30,367 nucleotides of DNA from a virus, in the IMG/VR virus record IMGVR_UViG_3300046007_000126, positions 1 through 30,367 of that record; one strand, 5' to 3'. The position numbers and the translations under genes are program-made. The notes below the pieces were generated by a model, which saw only the letters and a program-made list of their open reading frames with translations, did no database searches and had not been told where the DNA came from. Of this stretch, positions 5,061-30,367 are shown one piece after another (the first letter of the stretch is position 1; each line of letters opens with the position of its first letter).

Positions 5061-5513
5061 ATGGTCTATTTAGGAATTGATCCAGGGTTCACCGGCGCAT
5101 GGGGGTTGATCAACCACCACGGGGACTACATCGGCTGCGGAGACATGATCCACAACGAAAAGTGGATCGACATAAATTCTGTCTATCGAGAAATATCTTT
5201 GATAAGAGAAAACGATGACATGATGATTGTCGTAGAGGCTGTCCATGCCATGCCCAAGCAGGGCGTCTCTAGTTCCTTCAAGTTTGGTATGTCCTACGGC
5301 GCAGCGCTATGCCTGGCTCAAAGGTTTCTGGAACAGTGGGAACTAGTGCAGCCTAGGGTATGGAAGCGCGACATGGGGCTCACAGCCGACAAGACAGACA
5401 GCCTGAACATGGCCCGCCAGAAGTGGCCAGAAGCCCCGCTAAAGCGCGTAAAGGACAACGGAAGGGCAGAGGCTCTGCTGCTCGCTGAATGGCTGCGGCA
5501 GGCTTACTGCTGA
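5061..5513 (+). CDS. ruvC: RuvC-like Holliday junction resolvase
   Basis: A 150-aa protein and the only gene on the plus strand. It begins MVYLGIDPGFTG with D7 in the RuvC 'GIDPG' strand and has VVEAVHAMPKQG with E59 as the second acidic residue. It ends with KDNGRAEALLLAEWLRQ, where E137 and the D132/N133 position correspond to the C-terminal acidic pair. This RNase H-like layout is common in phage RuvC proteins, which resolve branched DNA before packaging. A GGAGG ribosome binding site sits between the last palindrome and the ATG, so a protein on the array would block its transcription or translation. Its 3' end overlaps the end of the giant gene by 10 bp, tail to tail. Confidence 0.88.
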   Translation: MVYLGIDPGFTGAWGLINHHGDYIGCGDMIHNEKWIDINSVYREISLIRENDDMMIVVEAVHAMPKQGVSSSFKFGMSYGAALCLAQRFLEQWELVQPRVWKRDMGLTADKTDSLNMARQKWPEAPLKRVKDNGRAEALLLAEWLRQAYC

Positions 5514-8500
5514 GTCTCTCTGACCCTGTCGTTGAACCGCTTCATCTGAACCATCATCTGGTTCTCAACCGCCTTGACTTGCTCCTTGGGGGCATCCTTC
5601 TCAATCAGCATATCCCGGCGCTTCTTCAGCTTCTGAATGTTGCGCTCGACCTGATTGGCGTAACCATATAGCCTGGCCTCGGGAAACTCCATGAGGTACT
5701 CACGGGTGGGAACCCTGTCTTTGATCCGCCCCTTGATCTCATTCTCATGCTTGTTGAGTTCGATGAGGTTGCTGTAGAAACGATTACGCTCAGCCGAGAT
5801 GCCTGTGGTTTCGCCAATGAACCGGCCAACGAGCGGCACCTTGTAGATCGGCAGCTCTTCGCCAGTGAATTGACTTGTTACAGTCTGCTCGGCTTTGAGA
5901 ATTTCACGACCAACACCGCCAGTCAACTGCCCAATAAGATAGTCAATTTGATCTGGAGTAGGGCTGATGATGCCAGGCTTGTAGTCTGTGCCACCGGTGG
6001 TTGCGTTCAAGTAGTAGGCCAGCTCTTTGCTCAATGCACTAGCGGCTTCCTTAGCGCGGGTGTAGCCTGGCGTGGGAGACAGGGAGCTGAAGTCTTCCTT
6101 GGCAATCGGCTTACCAGTCCAGTCCTTATTCTCAAAGAGCGCCACCAATGGATCGCCAACCGTCGGAGAGAATGTTTGGAACGACCAGCCAGCGTTACCT
6201 AGAGGGTTGAACATATCCAACAGAGAACCAGTCAACGACGCTACACGCTTCGGGGTCTCTTTGAATCCAGAAAGCGCCCACTCGGTTAGGATGCGTCCCG
6301 TGTTGGGAATGACGTTGTACCCAAGCGGCATTGGAACAGTAAGGTATGTTGTGCTACTCACCGGGATAATAAAGTTTCGCTCTTTTACAAACTCTGGCGG
6401 TTCATCTTCATCAAAGCCCATGGCGGCAAGCATCGCAGCCTGGGAAGAACCCATGATGATTCCGCCCCAGAAAATCTTCTTGCCAAGAGGGCTAAGCTCG
6501 TACCGCTTTCCGTTGAACCGGAACATGGTTTGGGCCATGCGCGTTGTACCTTGGACAGCAGCATTAAAGAACGCGTAGAGCGCGCCAGCCTGGCGACCAA
6601 TCTGACCCTTGCGGTTAAAGTTCACCGTGAGATCTTTAGCAAGATTTGCAGCCTGCTCCGTGGTAAATACGTTATTTCCCTGGGCATCTTTTTTGTCTAA
6701 TGCTGCTTTGTATGCAGCCAGACGAATGGCATTCTCCATAGACTGGTTGTAATCCTCCAACCAATTAAAGAGCGGCGCAGCCATCTTGCGTGCCGTTTCC
6801 ATCGGAACTTTGAGCGTACCGTTTGCAGTGAATACTTTGCCAAGAGGAGTCTTAGTCCAGGACGATGGATCTAGGATTGCTTGTAACGCATCAGCACGTT
6901 CTTGCATCCGACTAAACTGATCGCGGAATCCTGTCTGGCCACCCTCTTTCTGGAACTCTTCCCAGAGTTGCGACCATGTGCCCTTAAGAGGAGGTTTGCC
7001 AGCACGACGATTACGTTCCTCAGCATAGATGCCGCGCAACGCCGCTATGGTATCGCCCAAAATCTTCATCTTGTCACCAGCCAAAGGCGTGGTGTTGATC
7101 TGAATCATCGCGCCTTGAACGTCGCGCAAGAAGTTGATTGCACCAAAGATTGGGTTGTACTGAGTGTTGATCTTTGCGAAGTATTGGGTGAACTGCTGCA
7201 TCGCCCCCATGACTCGGCCAAGATTGTCGGCATCAAGATTTTTTAACGCCATGGCCATCCGCTTGGCGCGTTCATCCTGCGCGTTGAAGATGACGTATTT
7301 CTCTTTGCCGTTGATACGAACAGGGATCACGTACTCGGAGTTAAGTAGCGTCTTGTTCGGACGTTCAACTACCCTGTTGGTAGCCGCATCCACACTTCGT
7401 ATTACTGGTTCTTTAATTATGTTGTCGATGTCCGCAGGGTTAAGTCCAAGCGCATTTAGCTCATCCCTAACCTTTTGAGGATCTTTCATGACCTCTGGGT
7501 CATATGCTAACCAGAACCCTGGGTTGGGATTGCTGACCACGAGACCATAAAGCGCTTTGCTAACCCTGAGCTTTTCTCCACGGACAATTGCACGCTCGCG
7601 TTGCTCAGCAAGGTTCGCAAGAATATCTACAACCTTTCGTGACGAACCAACTGCTGCGCGACTGAACGGACCTTTGACAGCAATACCAGAACCAACACCA
7701 GTACCAATCTTGGTGATGTCGTATTCGCCTTCTTCGCGCTTCAATGGAACATAGTTCTGTAGCGCCTTGTTCCACGAATCAACTGTTTGTTGTGACTCTT
7801 GCCCCGTCTTAACGAGGATTTGTTGCGTATCCTTAACAATCTTATCTACCCGCTTAGCAAGGTCTTCAAAGACTTTCTTTTGCTGAGGAGTGAGACCTGC
7901 GAGGTAAGCCTGGGCGTCTTTCGTTAAGATCCCAGAACCACCATCAGCCATATTTGGATCGCGCTTTGCATTGAACTTATTGCGGGCCTCGGCATGACGA
8001 TTGTGAAGATACTCTTCAAACTGTTCAATGTTAAGACCTTTTGCACCAAGCTCTTTAATCAGCGGCTCAAGGTCACCTTTTAAAAAGTCTTGAACCTGTT
8101 TAGATGTTCGCCCATGGAATAGCGTTTCTTGAAGATACGGATTCCAACGGTCAGCAATTTGCTTACCGGCTTTGCGAATGTTTTCTACCACACGTTTCGT
8201 ATCAATTTGCTTGTCTTGCAACGTGTAGATGACATTGTCCATCTTGCTTTCAATCGGAGCGTCCCATGATCCTTTTGGTATGGGCTGGCCAAATACGTTG
8301 GTCTTGATGTTCTCTAATGGAACAGGGCGAGCACCCGTCTCAGTCACATAGTCAGTCAATGACTGAATACCCATTGGCCTGGGCTCATCACGCATGATCT
8401 GGTCAAATACTTTGTGAACTGCGTATTTGTTGTTAAACCCAAAGACGTTCTTCAGTCCGTCAAAGTATTTCTTGATTGCTTTGACAAACCGATCCCAAGC

Positions 8501-11500
8501 CGTCCCTAGCTTAGACTTCATGAGCGTTTCAGCATTGATCGCCCAATACTCGGACGGGTTTAGATACTGATAGAACTCATAGGACGGCATAGCCTGGACC
8601 GCTGCCGCAAATGTTGCTTCACTAGGCGCATCGAGGAATCCTAAGACCTTGCTAAAGTATTCTTGCGATGGTTGATCTTTGTTGGCCTTGACTGCTTTCT
8701 TCAGAGCATCCTGCCACGCATCAATCACAACTTTGCGCTGCGCTTCAGTCATCATCTGTTCAAGCGAGTGCATGATCTCATGGCGAACTGAAGAAGGATC
8801 TTCAACTCCGCTTGTACCGTTCCACAAGGTAACGATGCGATCAAACGGATTAAAGTTACCCGATGAACGACCAGGCTTCTTGGGAGTCCGTACAGACAAA
8901 CGCAGGCCATTGAGTAGCCACGGCGTCTTGTTATATGCATCCTGAATAGATGCCAAGACATCAGCGCTCAAGTCGCCCTTGTCGTATGCCTCTAGTGCGC
9001 GACGCAAGAAGTTCTCCGGGGAGGTGCTAGGAGCATAGCCCGCTTCAATTTCAGACTTCAGCTCCTTCGACAACTCATCAACGAGGGTCAGACGCCGCTG
9101 TAAATCTACTGTAGCGCCACCTTCAATAACCCCCTGGACCAGACGTTCACGACGAGCACGAAGCGCAGCGTACTGGGCGATGATCTCGTCACGGGTGAGG
9201 GACGGGATCATTGTGGATTCTTGTTCCGTTATCTGCGGCACCGTGTCGATGTTGTACAGGAAGTTCTCTTTCGACCCATACTCAACGCCGCGGGCAAGGA
9301 TCATGTTGCCAATCTGCAATATTGCATCAGCTTTGACTACGGGCAGCGTAGTGCGCCGGTCATAGAAGTAAGCATGACGGGTGGGATCAAATCCTAGCTG
9401 AACATATCGAGGATCGTTAATAGCCTTTTGTGCCATTTCAAATGCGGTTGACGGGGACACATTGACATACTCACCCTCCATCGTCTGAAGCGCATCTTTA
9501 GCAGACCCGGCAGCAATCTCTAATGCTTTGGCCTGGTTACCCAGAGCAAACGTCACATTCTTTGCAAGCGCTACGCTACGGTATCCAATAGCCAGCCCAG
9601 GCTTTGGCGATGTAACTTTGGGGCGACCTTCATGGATCGACACAACAAAGGTCTTGTGATTGTTCCACGCGGGAATGTCGAGACGCAGGCCCACCTTCGT
9701 ACCATCGGGGATAGATACGTTAGCCTTGGGTTTCTTATCCGACGACAGTGCATTGACTACCTGTTCCTCTGTTGCGGGCGTCAATGGCTCTGTGTACAAA
9801 GGAATAGGACGGAACCGATTGACCGCTTGGTCGTATTCTTCCTTGGTTACTTTGCCTTCTTGCAAAAGCTCTGCCAGTGCAGCCAGCTCAGGCGAACGGC
9901 CAGGAGGCAGCTTCTTCTTGGCTTTGGGCAGGTTTTCATCGAGGTCTTTGATGGTCTTTGCATCTTCGCCAAAAAGGTCAGACTGAGGCTCTTGTACTTT
10001 GATGGTTACTTGCTCTTCCATCAACTTACGCATATCAGACCAACTAAAGTATTGATAACCACGTTGGCTCGGTACTTTGGGTATCCGTAAAAAATCAAAG
10101 AGCTTAGATGTGTCTGGTGTTACTACACCCGGACGATCATCTGGAAAAAGGAATTTTGTTCTCCTACTAAACATCTGAGAGAACCGTTCGTACTGACCAT
10201 TTGGTTTGATCCAAATGCCGTCTTCGACCGATGGTCCAACTTTCTTAAGTGCATCCCTATCTCTCGATGCAACCAACAGACGACCGCCGCTTTGTGAAAT
10301 AGCTAACCTAAATAGTGTTCGTGTGACTTGTTCAGGCGTTTTGTTTTTAAACGCATCATTGTCAATAGTTGTGATACCAGTTACGCTAAAATCGTTACCA
10401 AGAGCAATGACGACCATAGACTCAGGATTTTCGTCTACGCGTTTTGCTATCTCAAATGGGTGAAAAGCCTCGGACGCTGTCAAAGGATTTTTTTGCAGAA
10501 GTTCTTTCTGCCCCATATCCTTAGAATAAGTCTGTACGTATCCTTCAGGAGCAATTACTGAATACTTATTTGTGTCTATAACGATATGGCCTTTGTACGC
10601 TAGCTTTGTAAAAGCATTGGTAAAAGATTTAGTCATAGATTGATCGGCTTTGCTAACCTCCACGTTGCCGCTTGGGTGGTTGTGCAACATCCACACGCCA
10701 GTAGCGCCAGCTTGCACAGCCGCCTCTTGAACCTTTTTCATGTACTCGATGCTGCTGTCGCCAACAATTGCAACCGCTGCCGCTGGCAAACGACTTGTTA
10801 CACCGAGTTGAGAAACGACTTCATTTTTGTCATTGACAAAGAACATACGAAAGGTCTCAAACCGGGGATGCCGGTAGACCTGAGACAGAACTGCTAGATC
10901 ATCATGCCCAGTTACTTTTTGTCCAACGAGGCTGACCCGCTGTCGTCTTGCGTAGTCTGTGGAGAGGGCCAGAGCGAGAGGGTTGTCGGTGGACTGTAAA
11001 GCATCCACGGTGGACACGGCCTCCCGTCTCGCAGTTTTTCCGGCTTGATTGTCTTCGTTTGGCGGTAACTGGCTATTAGCAAAGAGGGAGAGTTGTTCTG
11101 CATTTTCTTTCTTCCTTTTGGTAACTTTCTCCGGGGTGACTTGCTCCAGCCCTTCAACACCAAACAGATCTTTTTGAGCACCAGGGGGCGTCGTTCTTTC
11201 TGGTGGCGTAGGCGGAGTAAGACTGAAGAAGTCGCGCTCTAGTTCCGCTCTTCTTCGTTCTTCTGGGCTTGGCTCTCTAATTTGAGGCGTTTCAGCTCTT
11301 CCAATATCCGCTTCTGAGATTGTAGGGGCAACTCCTTCAGCCTCTCCAGCGCGTTCTTCTGCTGCGATTTCTGCGAGTCGGGCGTTGATTTGTCCAAGGG
11401 TCAGCTCCTTTGATAAGTTCTCAATCTTCTCGTCTATCACCCGCAATGCCATCTTGTCGTCTTCGGTCAAGAAGTCATTGTTCTCAATGCGCTCGATGAT

Positions 11501-13636
11501 GTAGTCAACAGCATTACGAACCTTTGAAAATTCATTGGGATCGTAAACATCCTCTGCACGCACGAATACTTTGAGGTCGTCAGGCAGGAAGTCGTTGAGC
11601 TGCTCGTCCTCAATCATTTGCTGCAATGGCTTGCCGCGACCTGTCTTGCTAACAAAACTATTTCGCCGAAGTGTTGCTCCTCGTCCCAGGCCAAAGTCAA
11701 CACGCTTCAGATCTTCATCGAGCGTTAGCATCCCATCTGGCAATGGGCGATCAGCGCCTTCAATCTTTGCAGGCTGAGCTGCTCTACCAGACAACAGATC
11801 AGCAAGGTTATTAAATCCCTTGGTGCCCTTGATGCGGTTGTACTGAATGTTTAGCGCTCTCTGCTTGTCGCTAATGTCTTTGCGTGCAGTCAGCTCTTCC
11901 TCGGACAGGATTGGCTCTTTGCCAAACATCTTCTCTTCAAAGACTGTCTTTGGACCTTTCGCTGGTAACTCTGGTACAGCCTCGACCTCGGGAGCAGTGA
12001 CCTCTGGGGGAAGTGTTGGCGGTGTCGTAAGGGCAATCTTCTCAGCCTCAAAAGTGTTGAGCTTAGCCGCTGCTACGTCAACGGCTTCTTGGCCAACCTT
12101 GTTCTTTTTAAACGCTGTCTCGGCCCGTTTCAGTTCCTGCCGGGCTTTGTTAATGTCCGTTTGTATCTCTTTTGCAGGACGACCAGCAGGTTTAATAACA
12201 GGTGGCGTAGGGGGCGTGATCGTACCAGCAGGGGGAGTAGGAGGCGTGACTGTCCCAGAAGGAGGAGTCGGTGGTGTTGGTGGCGTAACGCTTACGCCCG
12301 TAGGAGTTACGGGAGGTGTAACAGCAGGAGGCACTGTAACATTTGTTACAGTAGGCGCGACACCAGCAATCTGGGCGGCTATGTTATTGGCTTCATCGAA
12401 AGTGCCAAATGTTCCACCATCCTGCGTCTGTCCTGTTGCTGTGTCTATCATCAAGACTTGGAACTGACCGTTCGGAGCCGGGATGATCTGCGTTTCTGTC
12501 TGATCTGCGGGGTTTGTATATCCACCCAGGATTCCTGCCGACGGTGTAACAGGTGTTACAGGAGGCTGTCCTGCGGGTGGCGTAGTGGGCGCAGCGGCAG
12601 TTGGCGCAGCAGATGGGGTAGCAGCGGGCGGCGTAGTAGTAGGAGCAGCGGCAGGGGTGGTTGGTGTCTGAGGCCCCTTATAAGCATCGATAGCTTCTTT
12701 CGTTGTTTGAACAGTAGATCCAAGTCCACCGCCCACAATCGCCCCTTCTAGCCCCGCTAGAGCAGCCTCTTCTAAATCAAATCCTCTTTGAGTCCCAGCG
12801 GTTTCTGCTGAATAGGTACCAAACTCTTCTGCAAACTCTGTGCCTGCTTGAACCCCAGTCTCTTTGGCAATTCTTCCGGGAGCCGTTTTTCCTGTTACCC
12901 CAGCACCAGGCAACAATCTGCCAGTAGCAAATTTTTCAAATAATGTTTCAAACGCAGCAGCGCCAGCAGCGGCAGACACATCACCAACCGTGGCTTCGGC
13001 TAAAGTCTTCTTGTCATTTTCAACACGTGACTTCAGTATCTCGTTGGTTCGTGCGGCAAAGTATGCCGGGGCCATTGAAACCGCAGCCGCCATGTCCGGG
13101 ATGGAAGTTATTACTCGTTCAGCAATAAACGGGACGGCGTTTAAAGGATTTTCTGTAAGGTCTTTAAGCTCTGTGCTTGGCGCGTAACCAACGTCTTTCT
13201 CGTAGTTCAACGCCTTGTCCGCGAACTTCTTGCCTACCGTGTCAATTGGAAGTTCAAAGACCTGGTCTTTTGGAAGGCCAGTAAGGTTTGACATCAATTG
13301 AGCTAACGTGTCTGGAACTTCTAGTGCAGCACCAGCCAACCCAGCAGTTCTGGCCACAGCACCCATCAATGGGTTTTGCGTCTTTACTTCGCCCGGTGCA
13401 ATTGCCTGCGCTGGTGCAGACTCAGGCAGTATTTCTGGCCTTGCCGCACTTAAGAATTTATCTAAGAAGCCCTGCTCTTCTTCTTTTTTAAATGGGTCTG
13501 CGATCTGCCACTCGTTATTGACTAGATATGCGAACTGTCCAGTCTCTGGATTCCGAGCGGTTTGTGACGGAGGAACCCACTGATTATTAACGAGGAACAG
13601 CACCTCACCAGTTTGAGGGTTGACTGCTCTCTGCAT
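5504..13636 (-). CDS. Giant polyvalent phage protein with JAMM/RadC-like and HEXXH motifs (2710 aa)
   Basis: One uninterrupted frame with an AAGGA site before the ATG. Two N-terminal repeats, NPQTGEVLFLVNNQW (6-20) and NPETGQFAYLVNNEW (28-42), are followed by an Ala/Gly-rich region (about 90-320) of the kind seen in membrane-active virion proteins. Next is a Pro/Thr-rich linker (about 325-490) and coiled-coil/charged stretches. A RadC/JAB-type domain lies around 915-1040 with the JAMM motif HNHPSG...SKAD (H985, H987, S995, D998). A 'HAYFYDR' polyvalent-associated segment is near 1410, and HEIMH is at 1619-1623. The C-terminal third includes a 'VNFNRKGQIGRQAGALYAFFNAAVQG' region before a hydrophobic segment near 2390, similar to large-polyvalent-protein domain LPD38. 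Such proteins are thought to be packaged and injected with DNA. The enzymatic roles are inferred. Confidence 0.85.
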   Translation of the reverse strand: MQRAVNPQTGEVLFLVNNQWVPPSQTARNPETGQFAYLVNNEWQIADPFKKEEEQGFLDKFLSAARPEILPESAPAQAIAPGEVKTQNPLMGAVARTAGLAGAALEVPDTLAQLMSNLTGLPKDQVFELPIDTVGKKFADKALNYEKDVGYAPSTELKDLTENPLNAVPFIAERVITSIPDMAAAVSMAPAYFAARTNEILKSRVENDKKTLAEATVGDVSAAAGAAAFETLFEKFATGRLLPGAGVTGKTAPGRIAKETGVQAGTEFAEEFGTYSAETAGTQRGFDLEEAALAGLEGAIVGGGLGSTVQTTKEAIDAYKGPQTPTTPAAAPTTTPPAATPSAAPTAAAPTTPPAGQPPVTPVTPSAGILGGYTNPADQTETQIIPAPNGQFQVLMIDTATGQTQDGGTFGTFDEANNIAAQIAGVAPTVTNVTVPPAVTPPVTPTGVSVTPPTPPTPPSGTVTPPTPPAGTITPPTPPVIKPAGRPAKEIQTDINKARQELKRAETAFKKNKVGQEAVDVAAAKLNTFEAEKIALTTPPTLPPEVTAPEVEAVPELPAKGPKTVFEEKMFGKEPILSEEELTARKDISDKQRALNIQYNRIKGTKGFNNLADLLSGRAAQPAKIEGADRPLPDGMLTLDEDLKRVDFGLGRGATLRRNSFVSKTGRGKPLQQMIEDEQLNDFLPDDLKVFVRAEDVYDPNEFSKVRNAVDYIIERIENNDFLTEDDKMALRVIDEKIENLSKELTLGQINARLAEIAAEERAGEAEGVAPTISEADIGRAETPQIREPSPEERRRAELERDFFSLTPPTPPERTTPPGAQKDLFGVEGLEQVTPEKVTKRKKENAEQLSLFANSQLPPNEDNQAGKTARREAVSTVDALQSTDNPLALALSTDYARRQRVSLVGQKVTGHDDLAVLSQVYRHPRFETFRMFFVNDKNEVVSQLGVTSRLPAAAVAIVGDSSIEYMKKVQEAAVQAGATGVWMLHNHPSGNVEVSKADQSMTKSFTNAFTKLAYKGHIVIDTNKYSVIAPEGYVQTYSKDMGQKELLQKNPLTASEAFHPFEIAKRVDENPESMVVIALGNDFSVTGITTIDNDAFKNKTPEQVTRTLFRLAISQSGGRLLVASRDRDALKKVGPSVEDGIWIKPNGQYERFSQMFSRRTKFLFPDDRPGVVTPDTSKLFDFLRIPKVPSQRGYQYFSWSDMRKLMEEQVTIKVQEPQSDLFGEDAKTIKDLDENLPKAKKKLPPGRSPELAALAELLQEGKVTKEEYDQAVNRFRPIPLYTEPLTPATEEQVVNALSSDKKPKANVSIPDGTKVGLRLDIPAWNNHKTFVVSIHEGRPKVTSPKPGLAIGYRSVALAKNVTFALGNQAKALEIAAGSAKDALQTMEGEYVNVSPSTAFEMAQKAINDPRYVQLGFDPTRHAYFYDRRTTLPVVKADAILQIGNMILARGVEYGSKENFLYNIDTVPQITEQESTMIPSLTRDEIIAQYAALRARRERLVQGVIEGGATVDLQRRLTLVDELSKELKSEIEAGYAPSTSPENFLRRALEAYDKGDLSADVLASIQDAYNKTPWLLNGLRLSVRTPKKPGRSSGNFNPFDRIVTLWNGTSGVEDPSSVRHEIMHSLEQMMTEAQRKVVIDAWQDALKKAVKANKDQPSQEYFSKVLGFLDAPSEATFAAAVQAMPSYEFYQYLNPSEYWAINAETLMKSKLGTAWDRFVKAIKKYFDGLKNVFGFNNKYAVHKVFDQIMRDEPRPMGIQSLTDYVTETGARPVPLENIKTNVFGQPIPKGSWDAPIESKMDNVIYTLQDKQIDTKRVVENIRKAGKQIADRWNPYLQETLFHGRTSKQVQDFLKGDLEPLIKELGAKGLNIEQFEEYLHNRHAEARNKFNAKRDPNMADGGSGILTKDAQAYLAGLTPQQKKVFEDLAKRVDKIVKDTQQILVKTGQESQQTVDSWNKALQNYVPLKREEGEYDITKIGTGVGSGIAVKGPFSRAAVGSSRKVVDILANLAEQRERAIVRGEKLRVSKALYGLVVSNPNPGFWLAYDPEVMKDPQKVRDELNALGLNPADIDNIIKEPVIRSVDAATNRVVERPNKTLLNSEYVIPVRINGKEKYVIFNAQDERAKRMAMALKNLDADNLGRVMGAMQQFTQYFAKINTQYNPIFGAINFLRDVQGAMIQINTTPLAGDKMKILGDTIAALRGIYAEERNRRAGKPPLKGTWSQLWEEFQKEGGQTGFRDQFSRMQERADALQAILDPSSWTKTPLGKVFTANGTLKVPMETARKMAAPLFNWLEDYNQSMENAIRLAAYKAALDKKDAQGNNVFTTEQAANLAKDLTVNFNRKGQIGRQAGALYAFFNAAVQGTTRMAQTMFRFNGKRYELSPLGKKIFWGGIIMGSSQAAMLAAMGFDEDEPPEFVKERNFIIPVSSTTYLTVPMPLGYNVIPNTGRILTEWALSGFKETPKRVASLTGSLLDMFNPLGNAGWSFQTFSPTVGDPLVALFENKDWTGKPIAKEDFSSLSPTPGYTRAKEAASALSKELAYYLNATTGGTDYKPGIISPTPDQIDYLIGQLTGGVGREILKAEQTVTSQFTGEELPIYKVPLVGRFIGETTGISAERNRFYSNLIELNKHENEIKGRIKDRVPTREYLMEFPEARLYGYANQVERNIQKLKKRRDMLIEKDAPKEQVKAVENQMMVQMKRFNDRVRETQQ
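12335..12350. promoter_or_regulatory. Dispersed palindrome, same sequence class as the promoter array
   Basis: TGTAACA-TT-TGTTACA. With one flanking base on each side (12334-12351) it is the exact reverse complement of the promoter-region site CTGTAACAAATGTTACAG at 5036-5053. It lies in the Pro/Thr-rich linker of the giant protein (about residues 429-435, TVTNVTV). A nearby half-site TGTAACA is at 12317-12323. Confidence 0.6.
12545..12560. promoter_or_regulatory. Dispersed palindrome, second copy in the giant gene
   Basis: TGTAACA-GG-TGTTACA, with perfect 7-bp arms and the same 2-bp spacing as the promoter-region sites. It lies in the same linker of the giant protein (about residues 359-365, PVTPVTP), 194 bp upstream in reading direction of the copy at 12335. 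Confidence 0.55.
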
Positions 13637-23201: not shown

Positions 23202-23513
23202 TTACCAAGGAACCCCTTGGGCGGTTTGTACGTGCTGCTTAGCTATGGAAGAAATTAAACCTCGCTCCATCTGAGCAATTCTTTCTGGGCCTAACTGCTC
23301 TTGAACCCATGCAATAGTCTCAGCTTCAGTGAGCTGGTCAAACGGTATAAAGTCTGGGTCTGACGGAGACTTGTACGGCACCTTTTGGCCCACGTTTCCA
23401 TTGGCTTTATATTGACCATCTACCATCGAGACATTGCAACAAACCATGATTACCACGCCTTCTGGCACGGTACGAATTAGGTTATATACATTCCAGATCA
23501 TCTGGTTATCCAT
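23202..23513 (-). CDS. Small conserved phage protein (103 aa, DUF7936-like)
   Basis: A 103-aa soluble protein. A strand-rich N-terminus (MDNQMIWNVYNLIRTVPEGVV) precedes IPFDQLTEAETIAWVQEQLGPERIAQME (about 56-83) and a C-terminal GVPW. That 'I(P/Y)(F/Y)xxLTExxxIxWVxExLG ... GxPW' pattern occurs in small phage proteins located next to tail genes (DUF7936-like by memory). It overlaps the tail-fibre start region by 8 bp. Function is unknown; tail or adsorption-associated by context. Confidence 0.65.
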   Translation of the reverse strand: MDNQMIWNVYNLIRTVPEGVVIMVCCNVSMVDGQYKANGNVGQKVPYKSPSDPDFIPFDQLTEAETIAWVQEQLGPERIAQMERGLISSIAKQHVQTAQGVPW

Positions 23514-25155
23514 TCACCTTCTCCTTCAACGCATTGATCTCTGCACGGAGCTTCTGAATCTCTTTCAGCATCGGCGCAATAAGCTGTTCGTAATTGATGC
23601 CAGCAACTTCACCCTTAACAAATGCACAAATCTCTGGGCGCACAGTAACAACGTCTTCGGCAATAAGGCCAAACTCTGCTGTTTCATGGATCTTGCCCGT
23701 ATAGGAACCGTCTTCAGCTCTTTCACGACGGTTATATGACACAGGCTCCAAAGACATCAACCAGTCTGCGTCTGCTATTGGCGCAATGTTAGCCTTCGAC
23801 TCACGGGTAGAACTTAAGGTGCCAACAAGCCCGGTGTTATCTATATAAAGAGCACGATTAGTGCCGCCTACCGCAATTGAATACGTATCATCAAACAACA
23901 CTCTATTGTCGGCTCGCAAAGAATACGTGCGACCAGCAGCTACTGTTTTAAGAGACGCATTTGCCGCTGGAGTGTCATTAATACCAATCTCTCCAGTTGC
24001 GGTAATTAATATGCGACCAAATCCGTCTGTATAAATAGCAAAGTCTTGTGTTACACCAGTACCAACAGAATTTGATTCTATAAATGCGTTAATTGGAGAA
24101 GAGTAAAGAGATACATAGCTACAATTTGCTGGGTCTGTTGACCCATACAGAATTAATGACGTATCACTTTGTATTGACGAGACTCCAGGAATTACCCCTA
24201 AAGAAGTTCCCATAGTCGGCGTTGAGTGCTGCAACAAAAAACCATTAGCGTTTTGCGAATCAAACTTCGCTTGAAGCCTTCTAGCATCTCCACTAAATAC
24301 TAAGTTGGCACCAATAGTTTGATTGGCCGTAAACGTCTGGGCTTCTTCAAGAAACGCAAAGGTTCTGTTGCCTGACACAGCAGGTACTGTCAGCGTCCTG
24401 GCTGCATTGGTGGTGTAGTTAATTGTTGCTTTGTTAGTCTGGGTGCCAACGTTCAATGTACCAATGTTGCCGGTGGTCATTGAAATTGTTGATGCTGAAA
24501 AAGAACCTGTTCCGTCTCTGGCCACAATCGTGGATGCTGTACTTGCAGACGCTGTAGTGATCGCGTGGGTGTGAGTTGATCCAGACACTAGGTTAGTTGT
24601 CGTGGTGTCGAGCGTGCTTGGCGTTCCAAGAGTTACCGATCCAGTCGTGGTAATCGTGGAGAAGTTCATCCCATTACCAGCCGCAACAGATGAGACCGTG
24701 CCACCTGCCGTGGAGATTGCCGCCCCGCCAATCGTTGCTCCAGCAGGAAGATTAGTCACCGCGTTTACTACGTCCGTCCCATTGTTGTATAGGTGCATCG
24801 TCGCACCGTTGGGCACAGAGACACCTGTCTGGCCAGCTACCTTGACCGTAACCGCAAATCCACCAGTCGTACCGTTTTTGACGATGTAAGCTTTTTGGAC
24901 CGCTGGAACTTCTAGGACAGCAGCTCCGCCAGGCGTGCCCGTAAGGTTCAGATAAAGCGCCCGAGCATCTTGTGCCGCATTGGTATTTGTGAGCGTGAGC
25001 TGTTCAGTTGTGCTCGACATCGTCACATCTGCTTTGCCACCTATGGCCTGCTCAATGGCTGTGCCTAGGTTCGTGTTTGTGGTTTGCCCCCACGTCGAAA
25101 CCTGTTCGCCAGTACCAATTAACTCAATTTTTAAAGGTGAGTATGTAGATGCCAT
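23506..25155 (-). CDS. Tail fibre/spike with C-terminal peptidase S74 chaperone domain
   Basis: A 549-aa protein. The N-terminal ~45 residues (MASTYSPLKIELIGTGEQV then STWGQTTNTNLGTAIEQAI) are a conserved tail-fibre start. A Thr/Ser/Gly/Ala-rich beta shaft follows (about 50-290), then a more specific region (about 290-445). The end is an intramolecular chaperone of the endosialidase type (peptidase S74): SSTRESKANI with S449 and K454 as the likely Ser/Lys autocleavage pair, then FGLIAEDV and a C-terminal coiled coil (LKEIQKLRAEINALKEK). The chaperone trimerises the fibre and cleaves itself off. A homing endonuclease gene abuts its 5' end. Confidence 0.88.
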   Translation of the reverse strand: MASTYSPLKIELIGTGEQVSTWGQTTNTNLGTAIEQAIGGKADVTMSSTTEQLTLTNTNAAQDARALYLNLTGTPGGAAVLEVPAVQKAYIVKNGTTGGFAVTVKVAGQTGVSVPNGATMHLYNNGTDVVNAVTNLPAGATIGGAAISTAGGTVSSVAAGNGMNFSTITTTGSVTLGTPSTLDTTTTNLVSGSTHTHAITTASASTASTIVARDGTGSFSASTISMTTGNIGTLNVGTQTNKATINYTTNAARTLTVPAVSGNRTFAFLEEAQTFTANQTIGANLVFSGDARRLQAKFDSQNANGFLLQHSTPTMGTSLGVIPGVSSIQSDTSLILYGSTDPANCSYVSLYSSPINAFIESNSVGTGVTQDFAIYTDGFGRILITATGEIGINDTPAANASLKTVAAGRTYSLRADNRVLFDDTYSIAVGGTNRALYIDNTGLVGTLSSTRESKANIAPIADADWLMSLEPVSYNRRERAEDGSYTGKIHETAEFGLIAEDVVTVRPEICAFVKGEVAGINYEQLIAPMLKEIQKLRAEINALKEKVNG

Positions 25156-25947
25156 TTACAAATCCTTTGTTAAATAAACATGGGCCTTGCGTTTTTTTAT
25201 CAACAAAACCATTTTCTTAGAAACGCTATGAGCTTTTGCGGTTTGCGCTAAGGATAAATTTGAATAAAAAATTTCTTTTACCGTCTCTTCAGAAAGTTTT
25301 GCGTTTTTACTACGCTTCCCTTGAACTGCTAATTTTTGTGCAGCTATGGTAACTGCACGTAACCTATCAAACATTTCTTTTGTTTGTTGTCGTCTTTCGT
25401 TGCTTAATGGAAGTTTCCTTGATCCTTGTTTAACTAAAATTGGTGGGTGCTGTGCATCTAAATGCTTCCAACACTTTCCTTGCCTTGCTGCTTTAATTGT
25501 ATCGACATTGATCTTTTGCCCAAACGCTTCTTCAAGCATCTCTAACAATTCCCTATTTGACTTGTTCCACAGACTAGGGCTTCTGATAAACGCAACCATC
25601 TCTTCTGTAAGTTTTGCGTTATGAGACTCTTCTCCTATTTTGCGAACAACTTTGCCTTCTCCTTCTCCTCCCAAAGTAAGGTTGTATCCTCCACTACGTA
25701 CATACGATCCGTACTGCGCTATCAATCCTTTTTCTACAGCTTGTATCTCTAATCGATCAACACCTTCATACAATAGGACAATTTGAAACTGGTCTATTCC
25801 GTGCTTTCGCATAGCCTTATACAACGGCGTATCAAGACCAGAACGAGCGGCGCATTTGTGCTCTCGCCAACGCTTTTCCAATGAACAGGCAGTAATGCCA
25901 ATATACAACTTGTCATTTATTTTGTTAGTGATCTTGTATACGTACAT
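25156..25947 (-). CDS. GIY-YIG homing endonuclease
   Basis: A 263-aa protein. The N-terminal GIY-YIG nuclease domain is intact: MYVYKITNKINDKLYIGIT (YIG at 15-17), R27 in KRWREHK, E72 in QAVEKGLIAQYG and GYNLTLGGEGEG at 87-98. Two later segments, SHNAKLTEEMVAFIRS (about 108-123) and SKNAKLSEETVKEIFYS (about 214-230), are repeated DNA-contacting modules of the NUMOD type, with a final helix-turn-helix-like stretch (LAQTAKAHSVSKKMVLLIKK). The gene is AT-rich relative to its neighbours and its stop codon directly abuts the tail-fibre ATG. It cuts DNA at a homing site and spreads by recombination. Confidence 0.88.
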   Translation of the reverse strand: MYVYKITNKINDKLYIGITACSLEKRWREHKCAARSGLDTPLYKAMRKHGIDQFQIVLLYEGVDRLEIQAVEKGLIAQYGSYVRSGGYNLTLGGEGEGKVVRKIGEESHNAKLTEEMVAFIRSPSLWNKSNRELLEMLEEAFGQKINVDTIKAARQGKCWKHLDAQHPPILVKQGSRKLPLSNERRQQTKEMFDRLRAVTIAAQKLAVQGKRSKNAKLSEETVKEIFYSNLSLAQTAKAHSVSKKMVLLIKKRKAHVYLTKDL

Positions 25948-25953
25948 TGCAAT

Positions 25954-26022
25954 TTAAACTCCGGCTACCTGCTCACCGGTTCCAATCAGTTCAATCTTTA
26001 ATGGGCTGTAATCACTTGCCAT
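25954..26022 (-). pseudogene. Remnant of a tail-fibre 5' end, upstream of the homing endonuclease
   Basis: A 22-codon frame reads MASDYSPLKIELIGTGEQV and then AGV and a stop. Its first 19 residues match the start of the tail fibre at 25155 at 17 of 19 positions, while most codons differ (about 7 of 19 identical). A GGAG ribosome binding site from the upstream gene end remains in place. The similarity stops exactly where the sequence leads into the GIY-YIG gene. It looks like the leftover start of a resident tail-fibre gene interrupted at codon 19. Confidence 0.8.
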
Positions 26023-26025
26023 GAT

Positions 26026-26406
26026 TTACTCCGCTTCTACGTTGCCTGCGACCTGCATTTCAATCCAAGAACCCGTGTCTTCATCCCACGAATACATACC
26101 GCCTTCAGGCATTGGCACCGGTGCCTCCCACTGGGCCGTGTCATTGTTCAGCAGCCAAGACGCAAAAGGTTTGGGCGGTACAAACGCATCAATGTCGGCG
26201 TTGTAGGTGTAACCGATACCAGCGTAGTTCTTGCGGATGGTGCCGTTGTAAGAGGTTTGCTTCCATGTGCCGCCAAAGAGTTTCTCGCAGAACGCAGCCC
26301 CGATGTATTCCTTCTCCACACCATTAGCGTCTGCCGTGTCTTTGTTAGCCACCACGATGACTTGCGTCACCACGTTATTACCGTCAATCTGGGCGAAGTG
26401 CGCCAT
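26026..26406 (-). CDS. Conserved tail-region phage protein (126 aa)
   Basis: A 126-aa protein. It opens MAHFAQIDGNNVVTQVIVVAN and continues with AAFCEKLFGGTWKQTSYNG, RKNYAGIGYTYNADIDAFVPPKPF and 'SWDEDTGSWIE'. The combination of 'NVVTxVIVV', 'FCxxLFGGxWxQTSYNG' and 'GxGYTYxxDxDAFxPPxPF' is widespread in tailed phages next to tail-fibre genes. It is probably a small virion or fibre-associated protein. Its stop is 3 bp before the tail-fibre remnant start, so originally it would have been followed directly by the fibre gene. Confidence 0.75.
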   Translation of the reverse strand: MAHFAQIDGNNVVTQVIVVANKDTADANGVEKEYIGAAFCEKLFGGTWKQTSYNGTIRKNYAGIGYTYNADIDAFVPPKPFASWLLNNDTAQWEAPVPMPEGGMYSWDEDTGSWIEMQVAGNVEAE

Positions 26407-26417
26407 TTAGATCTCCT

Positions 26418-26990
26418 TTACCAAGTCCATGAAACGTATGAATAACGAATGCCCGATTTCACAGGCTTTACCTCATGCGGATACATGAAGTTACTGGGAA
26501 AAACTACTACCGCCCCAGCAGGCAGATGAATACGGTGGTCACCAAACATCATCAACTCACCGCCTTCGTAATCGTCGTTTAAAGCACCCAGTATCGTCAA
26601 GGTTGGGATGCCTTTTCGCTGACCATCAAACATCGAATGAATGTGGTCACAGTGCAGTTTCATCTGCGTGGTCGGGTCATACCGGTTAAACCGAATATTG
26701 GTGTACCCATTCCAGCCGCCAAACCAAGACTCAAAACTAGCGAAGTCCTTTAATACATAGCGCTCGACGGCAAACCAGACCTGCTTATTGATCTCGGCCT
26801 TCTCTGCAATATCGTCATGGCTAATGGCTAGTTCGTGGTCGTAACTGACATAAGAGTCAGTCCCAGACTGATAGAAGGTGTGCTGCTTCCAGTTGATCTT
26901 GTCGAGGTTCTCTGAAGCCGACTTGCATAGATCCACAGGTAGGTGGTTTTCATACACCTTGACATAATCTAGGAGATTCTGCGGCGTCAC
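26418..26990 (-). CDS. 2OG-Fe(II) oxygenase, prolyl-4-hydroxylase-like
   Basis: A 190-aa protein. The double-stranded beta-helix core has the iron triad H113-x-D115 (KLHCDHIHS) and H172 (MYPHEV), and R182 (SGIRYSYVSW) for 2-oxoglutarate. YEGGELMMFGDH (141-152) and AGAVVVFPSNF (158-168) are typical of P4Hc-type enzymes. The N-terminal region (1-95) is a helical extension. The substrate is unknown; related phage enzymes are common in aquatic phages. The stop overlaps no neighbour, but its 5' end overlaps the next oxygenase by 4 bp, so the two are coupled. Confidence 0.82.
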   Translation of the reverse strand: MTPQNLLDYVKVYENHLPVDLCKSASENLDKINWKQHTFYQSGTDSYVSYDHELAISHDDIAEKAEINKQVWFAVERYVLKDFASFESWFGGWNGYTNIRFNRYDPTTQMKLHCDHIHSMFDGQRKGIPTLTILGALNDDYEGGELMMFGDHRIHLPAGAVVVFPSNFMYPHEVKPVKSGIRYSYVSWTW

Positions 26991-27586
26991 AGGTGTAGCC
27001 CAGTCAATGATTCGTCTTGCCCAAAGTTGCCGATGGGGAAGGTGTTAAACGACAGACTAATGCGAGTCTGCTTACCCTCTACGGTCTCAACCATGTGCGT
27101 CAGGTGAGAGGGGAATATAAAGAGTCGGCCTGTGTAGGCTTCCATCCACCAAGACTCAGAGTTGTACGGATTGAAGTCTTCTGTAGGCGTCTTTAGTTGC
27201 TGATACCCGTCACGGTAGAAATAGATCTTGTCCGTTTCTTTATCGGCCTGGGGGTAAAACACACCAGAGACAAACGAATTGGGGTGAGCGTGTTTGTGGT
27301 GAAACTGACCCGGCTCGGTGTAATTGCACCATGACTGCGTGATGCGGAGCGTGGTCTCGTGCTTGGGGGCGTAGACGGCCTTGAAATAATTGGCAACAGA
27401 CTGCTCAATAAAGTCCTTCACACCCTTTAGTTCAGGGTTCTTTAGGATCGTGTTATCGACGCTTGTGGTATTGCCCATGTTATTGCGCTTCTCTTGGTTC
27501 TTGATGAACGCAATTTCTGTCTCGGTAAAGTCACGCCCGAGGTCGAACATACTTAATGCGGTAGGAAATAGGTTGTGGATATTCAC
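26987..27586 (-). CDS. Putative 2OG-Fe(II) oxygenase (TIGR02466/2OG-FeII_Oxy_5-like)
   Basis: A 199-aa protein. SWCNYTEPGQFHHKHAHPNSFVSGVFYP is described in parts: a 'YTEPGQF' turn, then HHKHAH (96-101) as the likely iron site, then SGVFYP. Later GRLFIFPSHLTHMVETVEGKQTRISLSFN supplies H164 (probable ligand) and an Arg near 175 for 2-oxoglutarate. The 'HxHxxSxxSGVxY ... FPSxLxHxVxxxxxxxRxSxSFN' pattern matches the TIGR02466-type oxygenases. It forms a coupled pair with the neighbouring P4H-like enzyme. The substrate is unknown; it could be a virion protein or a nucleic-acid base. Confidence 0.8.
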   Translation of the reverse strand: MNIHNLFPTALSMFDLGRDFTETEIAFIKNQEKRNNMGNTTSVDNTILKNPELKGVKDFIEQSVANYFKAVYAPKHETTLRITQSWCNYTEPGQFHHKHAHPNSFVSGVFYPQADKETDKIYFYRDGYQQLKTPTEDFNPYNSESWWMEAYTGRLFIFPSHLTHMVETVEGKQTRISLSFNTFPIGNFGQDESLTGLHL

Positions 27587-27850: not shown

Positions 27851-30367
27851 TTACCAACGAATTATGACAATTCCTGCGCCGCCTGCGCCGCCTGCATATC
27901 CAATATTATAAGTTGGGTTATTCGTACCGCCGCCACCGCCGCCGCCACCCGTGTTAACAACTCCATTTGAACCAGCAGTATTTGTTGGGCCACCGTCGCC
28001 GCCACCCCCTGTACCACCAGTTCCCCTCGTAGCACCGCCCCCACCACCGCCCCCACCACCAGCGTAAGTTACAGACACACCAGAAATCGACGACGCTGTA
28101 CCAGTGCCACCATTACCGGATTGTGTTGTTGTCCCATTGGCCCCAACTGCTGATGCGCCGCCACCACCCCCCGCTCCATAGTTTGCAGAGGCAGTGTTAT
28201 TTCCACCGTTATTGCCTTGTGATGGAGACACTGATGGTGTGTCACCAGCCCCTCCTGTCAAACTTGCTGCACGAATCCCAGCGCCGCCGCCAGAACCACC
28301 AGAACCACCATTACCTGCTGTTGCTGCAATTCCCGCAGCGCCAAACCCTCCACCGGCAGATGTTATGGTACTAAATACTGAATTTGACCCGGCCACACCA
28401 TTATTTAAAGCAGGGGCAGTTGCCTGAGCACCGCCACTGCCTCCAGCGCCTACTGTTACTGTATAAGACGTTCCAGCAGTGACTGCCAAACCGTTTCCAG
28501 TGCGATAACCCCCCGCACCTCCGCCACCGCCGCCCGAACCACCTCCACCACCCCCCGCTACAACGAGGTACTCGACTTCAGTAACCCCCGTTGGGCATAC
28601 CCATGTGCTAGTAGCCTGGAAGATTTGGAAATTGGGCTTGGAGAGGTATTTAAGGATCACGATACCGGAGCCGCCGTTGCCACCAGTTGCTGACGTTGGT
28701 GCATTCCAACCGCCTCCACCAGCACCACCACCTGTGTTATCTGTGCCATTACCTCCAGCAGTAGCGGCTGGAGTTGCATTACCACCATTTCCACCACCAC
28801 CTGTACCGCCTGTACCACCTGTAGTTCCACCCCCACTATGACCGCCACCACCTCCACCACCGGAATACGTTACTGATGTGCCAGAAATAGAGGATGCTGT
28901 GCCGTTACCGCCACCTCGTGCTGGAGAACCGCTTGCCGATTGACCTACTGCGGATGCGCCACCGCCACCTCCGCCACCAAATAGGGTAGGGCCATAAATT
29001 CCTGAACCTCCGTTGTTTCCTTGGCTTGGCGAAACAGAAGGTGTATTTCCTGTACCGCCTGGGCCAAACGTAGCTGGCCCATCTTTAAGAGTGCCGCCAC
29101 CACCAGAACCTCCATCTGCTCCCGTAGCAACTGCTGCCGAAGGGTTATTTATATAAGAACCACCGCCTCCGCCACCCGCAGAAGTAATTGTGCTGAATGT
29201 TGAAGACGTTCCAGAGTCAGCTTTTACTGATGAATTTTTACCAGCACCACCGGCACCAACAGTAACCGGATAAGAAGTTCCTGGGGTAACAGAAAGCCCT
29301 GTCCCCGTTCTAAAACCACCAGCACCGCCTCCACCACCAATGTGACCACCTCCACCACCGCCAGCCACGACGAGATACTCCACCGTGCTGACCCCTGGTG
29401 GGGCTACCCATGTTCCTGAAGATGTAAAGGTGTTTGTGACCTGTAAGGCTTGAGTCCACTTGAGAATGACAATGCCGGAGCCGCCTGCGCCAGCAGCAAT
29501 GTTGTCATCTCCAGCGCCGCCTCCGCCTCCGCCTGTGTTAGCGGTTCCAGCACTTCCAACAGCAGGGGCTTTTCCTCCAGCGCCGCCTCCGCCAGAACCT
29601 CCTGAACCAGCCGATCCTCCACTAGATCCCATCCCACCGCCACCACCACCTGCATAAGTGAAAGATGATCCAGATATAGTGGATGCGGTTCCATTACCAC
29701 CATTACCCGATGCGGGAGATGTTGCATTACCACCTACCGCACTAGCACCGCCGCCACCTCCAGATGGTCTATTGTTGGCACTTCCAGATGTGAAACCATT
29801 GCCCCCATTATTTCCCTGAGATGGCGATGTAACGGGAGTATTACCAGAGCCGCCAAGCCCCTGTGTCGTGAAAAAACCTCCAGCACCGCCGCCTGATCCA
29901 CCGTTCCCGCCATTTGTATCAAAACTAGCCCCGTTACCCCCACCAGCAGATGTAATGGCGCTGGGTGCATTTCCAAATACGGAATTTGCGCCAGGACTCC
30001 CTTGATTATTGGGCGCATTTCCAGTAGCGGCAGCACCGCCTGCACCAACAGTTACAGTGTATGAAGTACCTGCGGTAACAGAAAGTCCAGTTCCAGTTCT
30101 AAATCCGCCTGCTCCGCCTCCGCCACCCTGTTGCCTAGCTCCCCCACCCCCACCAGCAACCACAAGGTACTCAACACTTGTCACCCCTTCAGGGGCAGTC
30201 CAGTTGCCAGATGATGTAAAGGTCTGAACTACATCAATCGTAGTCGCAGGAGTGACCGTGTATTTGATGATGACGATGCCAGAGCCGCCTGAACCGCCTG
30301 CTGCTGATGCCAAAGGAACAAGCGAACCATTGCCGCCACCGCCGCCACCGCCGGTATTCTCTCTCCC
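27851..30367 (-). CDS. Gly-rich tandem-repeat tail/adhesin protein, partial (N-terminus off the window)
   Basis: The frame is open from the right window edge to TAA 27851-27853 (about 838 codons); no true start is visible, so the N-terminus is missing. It contains three complete repeats of about 256-269 residues. Each begins with a 'FTSSGxWxxPxGVxxVEYLVVAGGGGG' block, followed by long runs of Gly with Asn, Ser and Thr ('SPSQGNNGG', 'GGGGGGASAVG'), and ends 'GGSGIVIxK'. The leftmost fragment of a further repeat lies at the window edge. This is the composition of phage Gly-rich domains found in tail or adhesin proteins, where poly-Gly helices form receptor-contacting tips. It is probably a host-recognition protein; inferred. 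Confidence 0.82.
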   Translation of the reverse strand, partial: GRENTGGGGGGGNGSLVPLASAAGGSGGSGIVIIKYTVTPATTIDVVQTFTSSGNWTAPEGVTSVEYLVVAGGGGGARQQGGGGGAGGFRTGTGLSVTAGTSYTVTVGAGGAAATGNAPNNQGSPGANSVFGNAPSAITSAGGGNGASFDTNGGNGGSGGGAGGFFTTQGLGGSGNTPVTSPSQGNNGGNGFTSGSANNRPSGGGGGASAVGGNATSPASGNGGNGTASTISGSSFTYAGGGGGGMGSSGGSAGSGGSGGGGAGGKAPAVGSAGTANTGGGGGGAGDDNIAAGAGGSGIVILKWTQALQVTNTFTSSGTWVAPPGVSTVEYLVVAGGGGGGHIGGGGGAGGFRTGTGLSVTPGTSYPVTVGAGGAGKNSSVKADSGTSSTFSTITSAGGGGGGSYINNPSAAVATGADGGSGGGGTLKDGPATFGPGGTGNTPSVSPSQGNNGGSGIYGPTLFGGGGGGGASAVGQSASGSPARGGGNGTASSISGTSVTYSGGGGGGGHSGGGTTGGTGGTGGGGNGGNATPAATAGGNGTDNTGGGAGGGGWNAPTSATGGNGGSGIVILKYLSKPNFQIFQATSTWVCPTGVTEVEYLVVAGGGGGGSGGGGGGAGGYRTGNGLAVTAGTSYTVTVGAGGSGGAQATAPALNNGVAGSNSVFSTITSAGGGFGAAGIAATAGNGGSGGSGGGAGIRAASLTGGAGDTPSVSPSQGNNGGNNTASANYGAGGGGGASAVGANGTTTQSGNGGTGTASSISGVSVTYAGGGGGGGGGATRGTGGTGGGGDGGPTNTAGSNGVVNTGGGGGGGGTNNPTYNIGYAGGAGGAGIVIIRW
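27854..28621 (-). repeat. Gly-rich tandem repeat, unit 3 (about 256 aa)
   Basis: It begins with FQATSTWVCPTGVTEVEYLV and ends with GGAGIVIIRW. It is the last unit before the stop, with the same order of blocks as the other units but a diverged opening (Cys in place of Ala). Confidence 0.8.
28622..29428 (-). repeat. Gly-rich tandem repeat, unit 2 (269 aa)
   Basis: It begins FTSSGTWVAPPGVSTVEYLV and ends GGSGIVILKYLSKPN before unit 3. The block order VEYLVVAGG, FRTGTGLSV, SPSQGNNGG and ASAVGQ matches units 1 and 3. Confidence 0.82.
29429..30220 (-). repeat. Gly-rich tandem repeat, unit 1 (264 aa)
   Basis: It begins FTSSGNWTAPEGVTSVEYLV and ends GGSGIVILKWTQALQVTN. The sequence right of 30220 is the end of a further, incomplete unit that continues beyond the window. 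Confidence 0.82.

Follow-up and report, generated by a model that had tools for sequence, protein, structure and literature searches.

A putative GIY-YIG homing endonuclease gene in a phage tail fibre gene, probably accompanied by a re-spelled fibre start

How can an endonuclease gene come to lie inside a tail fibre gene, between two versions of the same fibre start, while a full-length fibre gene is kept? The question is raised by IMG/VR record IMGVR_UViG_3300046007_000126, of which the whole stretch of 30,367 nucleotides was analysed and is called the window here. A fibre stub, a GIY-YIG gene and a complete fibre gene lie end to end on its minus strand, so the layout described in an earlier note on this DNA holds. 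Ahead of them on the same strand is a gene for a 126-aa protein (26406-26026), which matches PHROG 7759, a family with no function assigned in PHROG. The stub open reading frame starts with an ATG at 26022, reads MASDYSPLKIELIGTGEQVAGV over 22 codons and ends with a TAA at 25956-25954. It is followed by the GIY-YIG homing endonuclease gene, or HEG (25947-25156, minus strand, 263 aa), a separate open reading frame that has a stop codon of its own ahead of the fibre ATG. The complete fibre gene (25155-23506, minus strand, 549 aa) begins with an ATG that abuts this stop codon, has a Shine-Dalgarno core, AAAGG, 8 nt ahead of the ATG within the last codons of the HEG, and encodes a Peptidase_S74 chaperone domain (Pfam PF13884) at its C-terminus.

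Other genes of the window were noted on the same strand. Two adjacent 2OG-Fe(II) oxygenase genes (26418-26990 and 26987-27586; PF13640 and PF13759) lie between fibre genes, and a fibre-like protein that is rich in glycine and has about three internal repeats (27851-30367) runs off the window end. A large polyvalent protein of 2710 aa, in which LPD38 and a RadC-like JAB domain are present, is encoded at 5504-13636.

The stub and the start of the complete fibre encode nearly the same protein with different letters. Over codons 1-19 they agree at 39 of 57 nt, and a codon-by-codon comparison gives 7 identical codons, 11 synonymous ones and 1 non-synonymous one. The codons are mostly different, as the earlier note had said, and the residue match is 18 of 19 instead of the 17 that it had counted, D4/T4 being the sole difference.

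The window HEG is a putative GIY-YIG homing endonuclease gene, judging from conserved positions of the catalytic domain. Its product matches Pfam PF01541 (GIY-YIG) above the cut-off with E=3.3e-10, PHROG 314 (homing endonuclease) with E=9.9e-29 and, in a profile comparison, PDB 1mk0/1ln0 (intron-associated endonuclease 1, the I-TevI catalytic domain) with E=5.4e-5. Residues Y4, Y15, G17, R26, E72 and N89 are invariant in 15 endonuclease members, and the Tyr, Tyr, Arg, Glu and Asn positions among them are those we take to be catalytic in the GIY-YIG domain. The predicted structure (mean pLDDT 74, pTM 0.38) has a nuclease-like domain at the N-terminus and, in its C-terminal part, helical segments at 115-156 and 220-255; the pTM is low, and the model therefore says nothing about domain packing. 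In sequenced cellular genomes one distant match was the only relative found. In cultured phages the matches are distant as well and mostly cover the N-terminal nuclease part, and the few that span most of the endonuclease length are below 30% identity. A group I intron as host of the HEG was considered and ruled out, as Rfam gave zero matches in window positions 23400-26600.

The origin of the two fibre starts can be read from a relative without the HEG, L013 (IMG/VR 3300037502_000112), which was found by a search with the window fibre. In L013 a single unbroken fibre gene comes immediately after the 126-aa upstream gene that the window also has, in line with the earlier expectations that the insertion would go with the HEG and that in a relative lacking it the fibre would follow that gene directly. 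The stub (26022-25963, minus strand) is identical to codons 1-20 of the L013 fibre at 60 of 60 nt, through the GCC of codon 20 at 25963, and a resemblance by chance is excluded because of this identity. The stub is thus the old start of the resident fibre, as had been suggested, and it does break off there, slightly beyond the codon 19 that had been given as the breakpoint. Over 26112-25963 the window and L013 have zero mismatches. The next stretch, GGAGTTTAA (25962-25954, minus strand), is the part of the insert that closes the stub frame, and it is absent from L013.

On the other side of the HEG, the window fibre differs from L013 across codons 1-25, with the last mismatch at 25081, and from there the two show 2 differences in 2103 nt (25080-22978). 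Since the stub and the body both match L013 they belong to one allele, and the foreign DNA consists of the HEG and 25 codons. The fibre body (25080-23506, minus strand, codons 26-549 and the stop) is that of the resident allele; only codons 1-25 (25155-25081, minus strand) are foreign, and they form a re-spelled 5' patch that replaces the resident codons.

These breakpoints bear on the reading given in the earlier note, in which the resident fibre gave way to an endonuclease plus a diverged full-length fibre and host range shifted with homing. A point for it is that, leaving the insert aside, the window and L013 hardly differ over the tract 26112-22978 (minus strand), amid a background that has diverged by 5-10%; by its sequence, this fibre block is the product of a recent exchange between the two lineages by some recombination. 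However, comparable near-identical blocks are present elsewhere in the alignment, and the tract therefore need not stem from homing. With the stub and the body both of the L013 allele, and with the bodies of L176, L187, L190 and L233 likewise matching those of HEG-less relatives, replacement of the full-length fibre is very unlikely. The exchange of a host-range gene falls with it: the part that was swapped is the conserved N-terminal start and not the receptor-binding part.

The same comparison makes it barely credible that the fibre start was duplicated in tandem and diverged in place, with the HEG then inserted between the copies. Two copies of the start do flank the HEG, but compared with L013 the stub and the body carry next to no mutations and the patch differs at about 30% of its nucleotides, a contrast that local duplication cannot give. 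No HEG-less relative with two fibre starts, which the earlier note had named as evidence against its proposal, turned up in a scan of about 100 fibre loci that lack the HEG. In several lineages, the window excepted, the patch is also closer to other HEG-linked patches than to HEG-less starts.

All of the evidence comes from metagenome contigs, L013 and the other relatives included, and the exact junction of stub and HEG in the window is known from a single contig, a junction search having found no further one. One could thus suppose that an L013-like fibre start was joined in assembly to the HEG-fibre segment of another phage. Such a chimera is extremely unlikely: past the patch the fibre body returns to the L013 type, so two chimeric joins around 0.9 kb would be needed, and an equivalent structure with a different left junction is found in four other contigs.

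Those four contigs, L192-L195, were retrieved by endonuclease profile search, and their endonuclease is 46% identical to that of the window. Each has a stub that reads MATAYTSLLGLALPVTGELAGTWGEV up to its stop, then the endonuclease, then a fibre that reads MASSYTPLLGLVLPVTGELAGTWGTVWNDS. The HEG-less L242 serves as the empty allele for L192-L195 and for L233. The L192-L195 stub is identical to L242 at 69 of 69 nt, the identity running on through TGGGGCGA and the match extending through GGCACATGGGGCGA in codon 25. The patch agrees with L242 at 47 of 69 nt, and from about codon 32 the fibre body is about 96% or more identical to it. As far as sequence comparison goes, L192-L195 are thus an independent instance of a HEG and a diverged 5' patch placed on top of a resident fibre body.

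In other members the HEG is flanked by the upstream gene and the fibre, without a stub, as seen when L176 is paired with the HEG-less L102, L187 and L189 with L162, and L190 with L163. Against the HEG-less relative their fibre starts have an identity of about 70%, which then rises abruptly to more than 90%, at codon 41 for L176/L102, codon 27 for L187 and L189/L162, and codon 23 for L190/L163. Presence/absence polymorphism at the same site is therefore represented by the empty alleles L013 and L242, and also by L102, L162 and L163. Across 17 pairs of HEG-bearing and HEG-less fibres, identity is 0.720 in the 5' part (nt 4-75) and 0.897 in the body (nt 127-300), whereas 33 control pairs of HEG-less fibres give 0.853 and 0.865 for the same parts. 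These pairs are non-independent and several HEG-bearing contigs are near-duplicates, which leaves about four or five independent replacements with good empty alleles. A general 5' hypervariability of fibre genes is ruled out by the control pairs. The similarity of HEG proteins correlates with that of patches with a rho of 0.76 (permutation p 0.0005), compared with 0.55 for the body.

There is one exception. L352, which carries a HEG and has L356 as its empty context, has a fibre start 96% identical to that of the HEG-less L355, and the linkage of the HEG with divergent spelling is therefore not absolute. L352 adds nothing to the evidence for the patch, because its fibre start and that of L355 have not diverged. 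The HEG-less start at L355:2501 may be a patch left after loss of the endonuclease, or a patch of local origin. The endonuclease genes of L340 (2377-3197), L341 (2377-3197) and L352 (2374-3182) open with fibre-like codons (MPSSY or MPATY), which suggests that in these three contigs translation of the enzyme begins at a start codon of fibre type.

The arrangement of HEG and fibre is constant in the family. The searches used the endonuclease alone and are therefore not biased towards fibres. In 35 of 35 contigs examined, several of them near-duplicates, the fibre ATG lies at most 2 nt from the HEG stop. All 35 also have AAGG 7-9 nt ahead of the fibre ATG, within the last HEG codons (L351, which carries GAAGG and was missed by the script pattern, is included), and Trp-Gly (WG) at fibre codons 22-23. 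The shorter GIY-YIG genes of L198-L205 (222 and 190 aa) likewise stop immediately ahead of fibre starts, which belong to other families.

Altogether, the locus has the traits of intronless homing, namely the lack of an intron, presence/absence polymorphism and a diverged 5' flank in carriers, with L352/L355 as the exception. It is highly probable that the insert arose by intronless homing of a GIY-YIG HEG together with a short re-spelled 5' patch of the fibre gene. The patch would re-encode roughly the first 23-41 fibre codons and so restore a full-length gene on the resident body. In the window and in L192-L195 the resident fibre is broken at codons 20-25, with the HEG and then the patch following. 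The end of the stub lies 3 nt ahead of TGG in the window and 8 nt past the T of TGG in L192-L195, and all right breakpoints lie at or beyond TGG; from these positions we infer a break near the Trp-Gly codons, with the enzyme presumably cutting empty fibre genes at or near these conserved codons. Homology within the coding sequence of the fibre would then serve to repair the right side of the break, with breakpoints varying over codons 23-41. The left side would in most members be repaired by homology through the upstream gene, leaving no stub, and in the window and L192-L195 by illegitimate repair inside the fibre, so that a stub remains.

The different spelling of the patch may have two effects. 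It may shield the patch from cutting, and it may make the patch too diverged from the stub for the recombination that would delete the insert, the longest exact run common to the two being 6 nt in the window. The motif CAC[CTA]TGG, which was chosen post hoc, is found at the site in 0 of 14 HEG-bearing and 26 of 56 HEG-less fibre starts, and it is present in the paired empty alleles L013, L242, L102, L162 and L163. Its absence from the carriers is suggestive and would fit protection by spelling, with the reservation that the motif is a post hoc one. For expression, the HEG may be translated from the original start of the fibre by way of the stub, through re-initiation, and the 3' end of the HEG may provide the fibre with a new ribosome-binding site.

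Whether the patch is functional in its own right is a separate matter. Flank co-conversion is standard for T4 homing endonucleases (PMC2988022), and a fibre-adjacent HEG might simply drag a short flank along, the patch having no role. The right breakpoints do vary, and the spelling differences resemble ordinary divergence under purifying selection, both of which favour this explanation. It does not account well for the stub-bearing insertions, which without a patch would destroy the fibre, nor for the finding that in 35 of 35 contigs HEG and patch are joined at a distance of 0-2 nt and the HEG contains the ribosome-binding site; we consider ordinary co-conversion alone a real but rather unlikely explanation. 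The chances are about even that HEG and patch form one co-evolving mobile cassette, in which the patch is functional: it would resist the enzyme, block loop-out against the stub, be joined through the ribosome-binding site, and give the element entry into the coding sequence of a gene that is presumably essential, in fibres of different families.

Known phage systems share parts of this picture. T4 SegF, SegG and MobE are free-standing endonucleases that cut a neighbouring gene in HEG-less relatives and co-convert the flanks, and in the T4 intron system one-sided illegitimate repair has been described (PMC2988022). Like the window HEG, the GIY-YIG (Seg) genes of T4 lie between phage genes and their flanks are co-converted, but they sit beside intact genes, whereas the window HEG interrupts a coding sequence that the patch rebuilds, and its target is a tail fibre. 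In phage Aeh1 mobE in nrdA and T4 mobA in gene 60, the endonuclease lies within a coding gene (PMC2988022), as in the window; these leave the gene in pieces, while the window patch restores one full-length gene. In L004 (4313-9080) a GIY-YIG gene lies between N-terminal (NTPase domain) and C-terminal (finger, HHH) pieces of DNA polymerase III alpha, possibly a gene-in-pieces polymerase, and L006 and L008 have a similar layout, by open reading frames only. I-TevI shares with the window enzyme the GIY-YIG domain, and the model of the latter has an N-terminal nuclease-like and a helical C-terminal part; I-TevI is intron-encoded, whereas the window HEG has no detected intron.

The closest likeness is to fungal mitochondrial mobile ORFs (mORFs), which carry a foreign carboxy-terminus and leave the native end as a remnant, for example in atp6 of Allomyces macrogynus and in atp6, atp9, cox2 and nad3 of Glomus sp.; the duplicated ends of Glomus atp6 are 63.5% identical in DNA and 91% in protein (PMC3630166). 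The window insert, like that of L192-L195, also brings along a substitute for one end of its host gene (the patch, 25155-25081) and leaves a native remnant (the stub, 26022-25963). In both systems an endonuclease ORF has entered a coding gene that is essential, presumably so for the fibre, supplies a diverged version of one gene end and leaves the resident end as a remnant. The fungal elements replace the 3' end in mitochondria, in contrast to the 5' end in a phage here, with a ribosome-binding site from the HEG 3' end. The replaced end being the amino-terminus, the window element works like a fungal mORF and is not a member of that group. In a search of the open-access literature, no description of a phage HEG carrying a replacement gene start was found.

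The nucleotide-exact breakpoints in empty alleles predict both the cut site and the protected sequence, and the mechanism is therefore directly testable. The locus shows that a free-standing HEG can enter a presumably needed coding gene without breaking it, and that the solution of fungal mitochondria, a carried replacement gene end, also exists in phages in mirror image. For tail fibre genes it means that an abrupt N-terminal divergence can be a footprint of homing and not of host-range selection.
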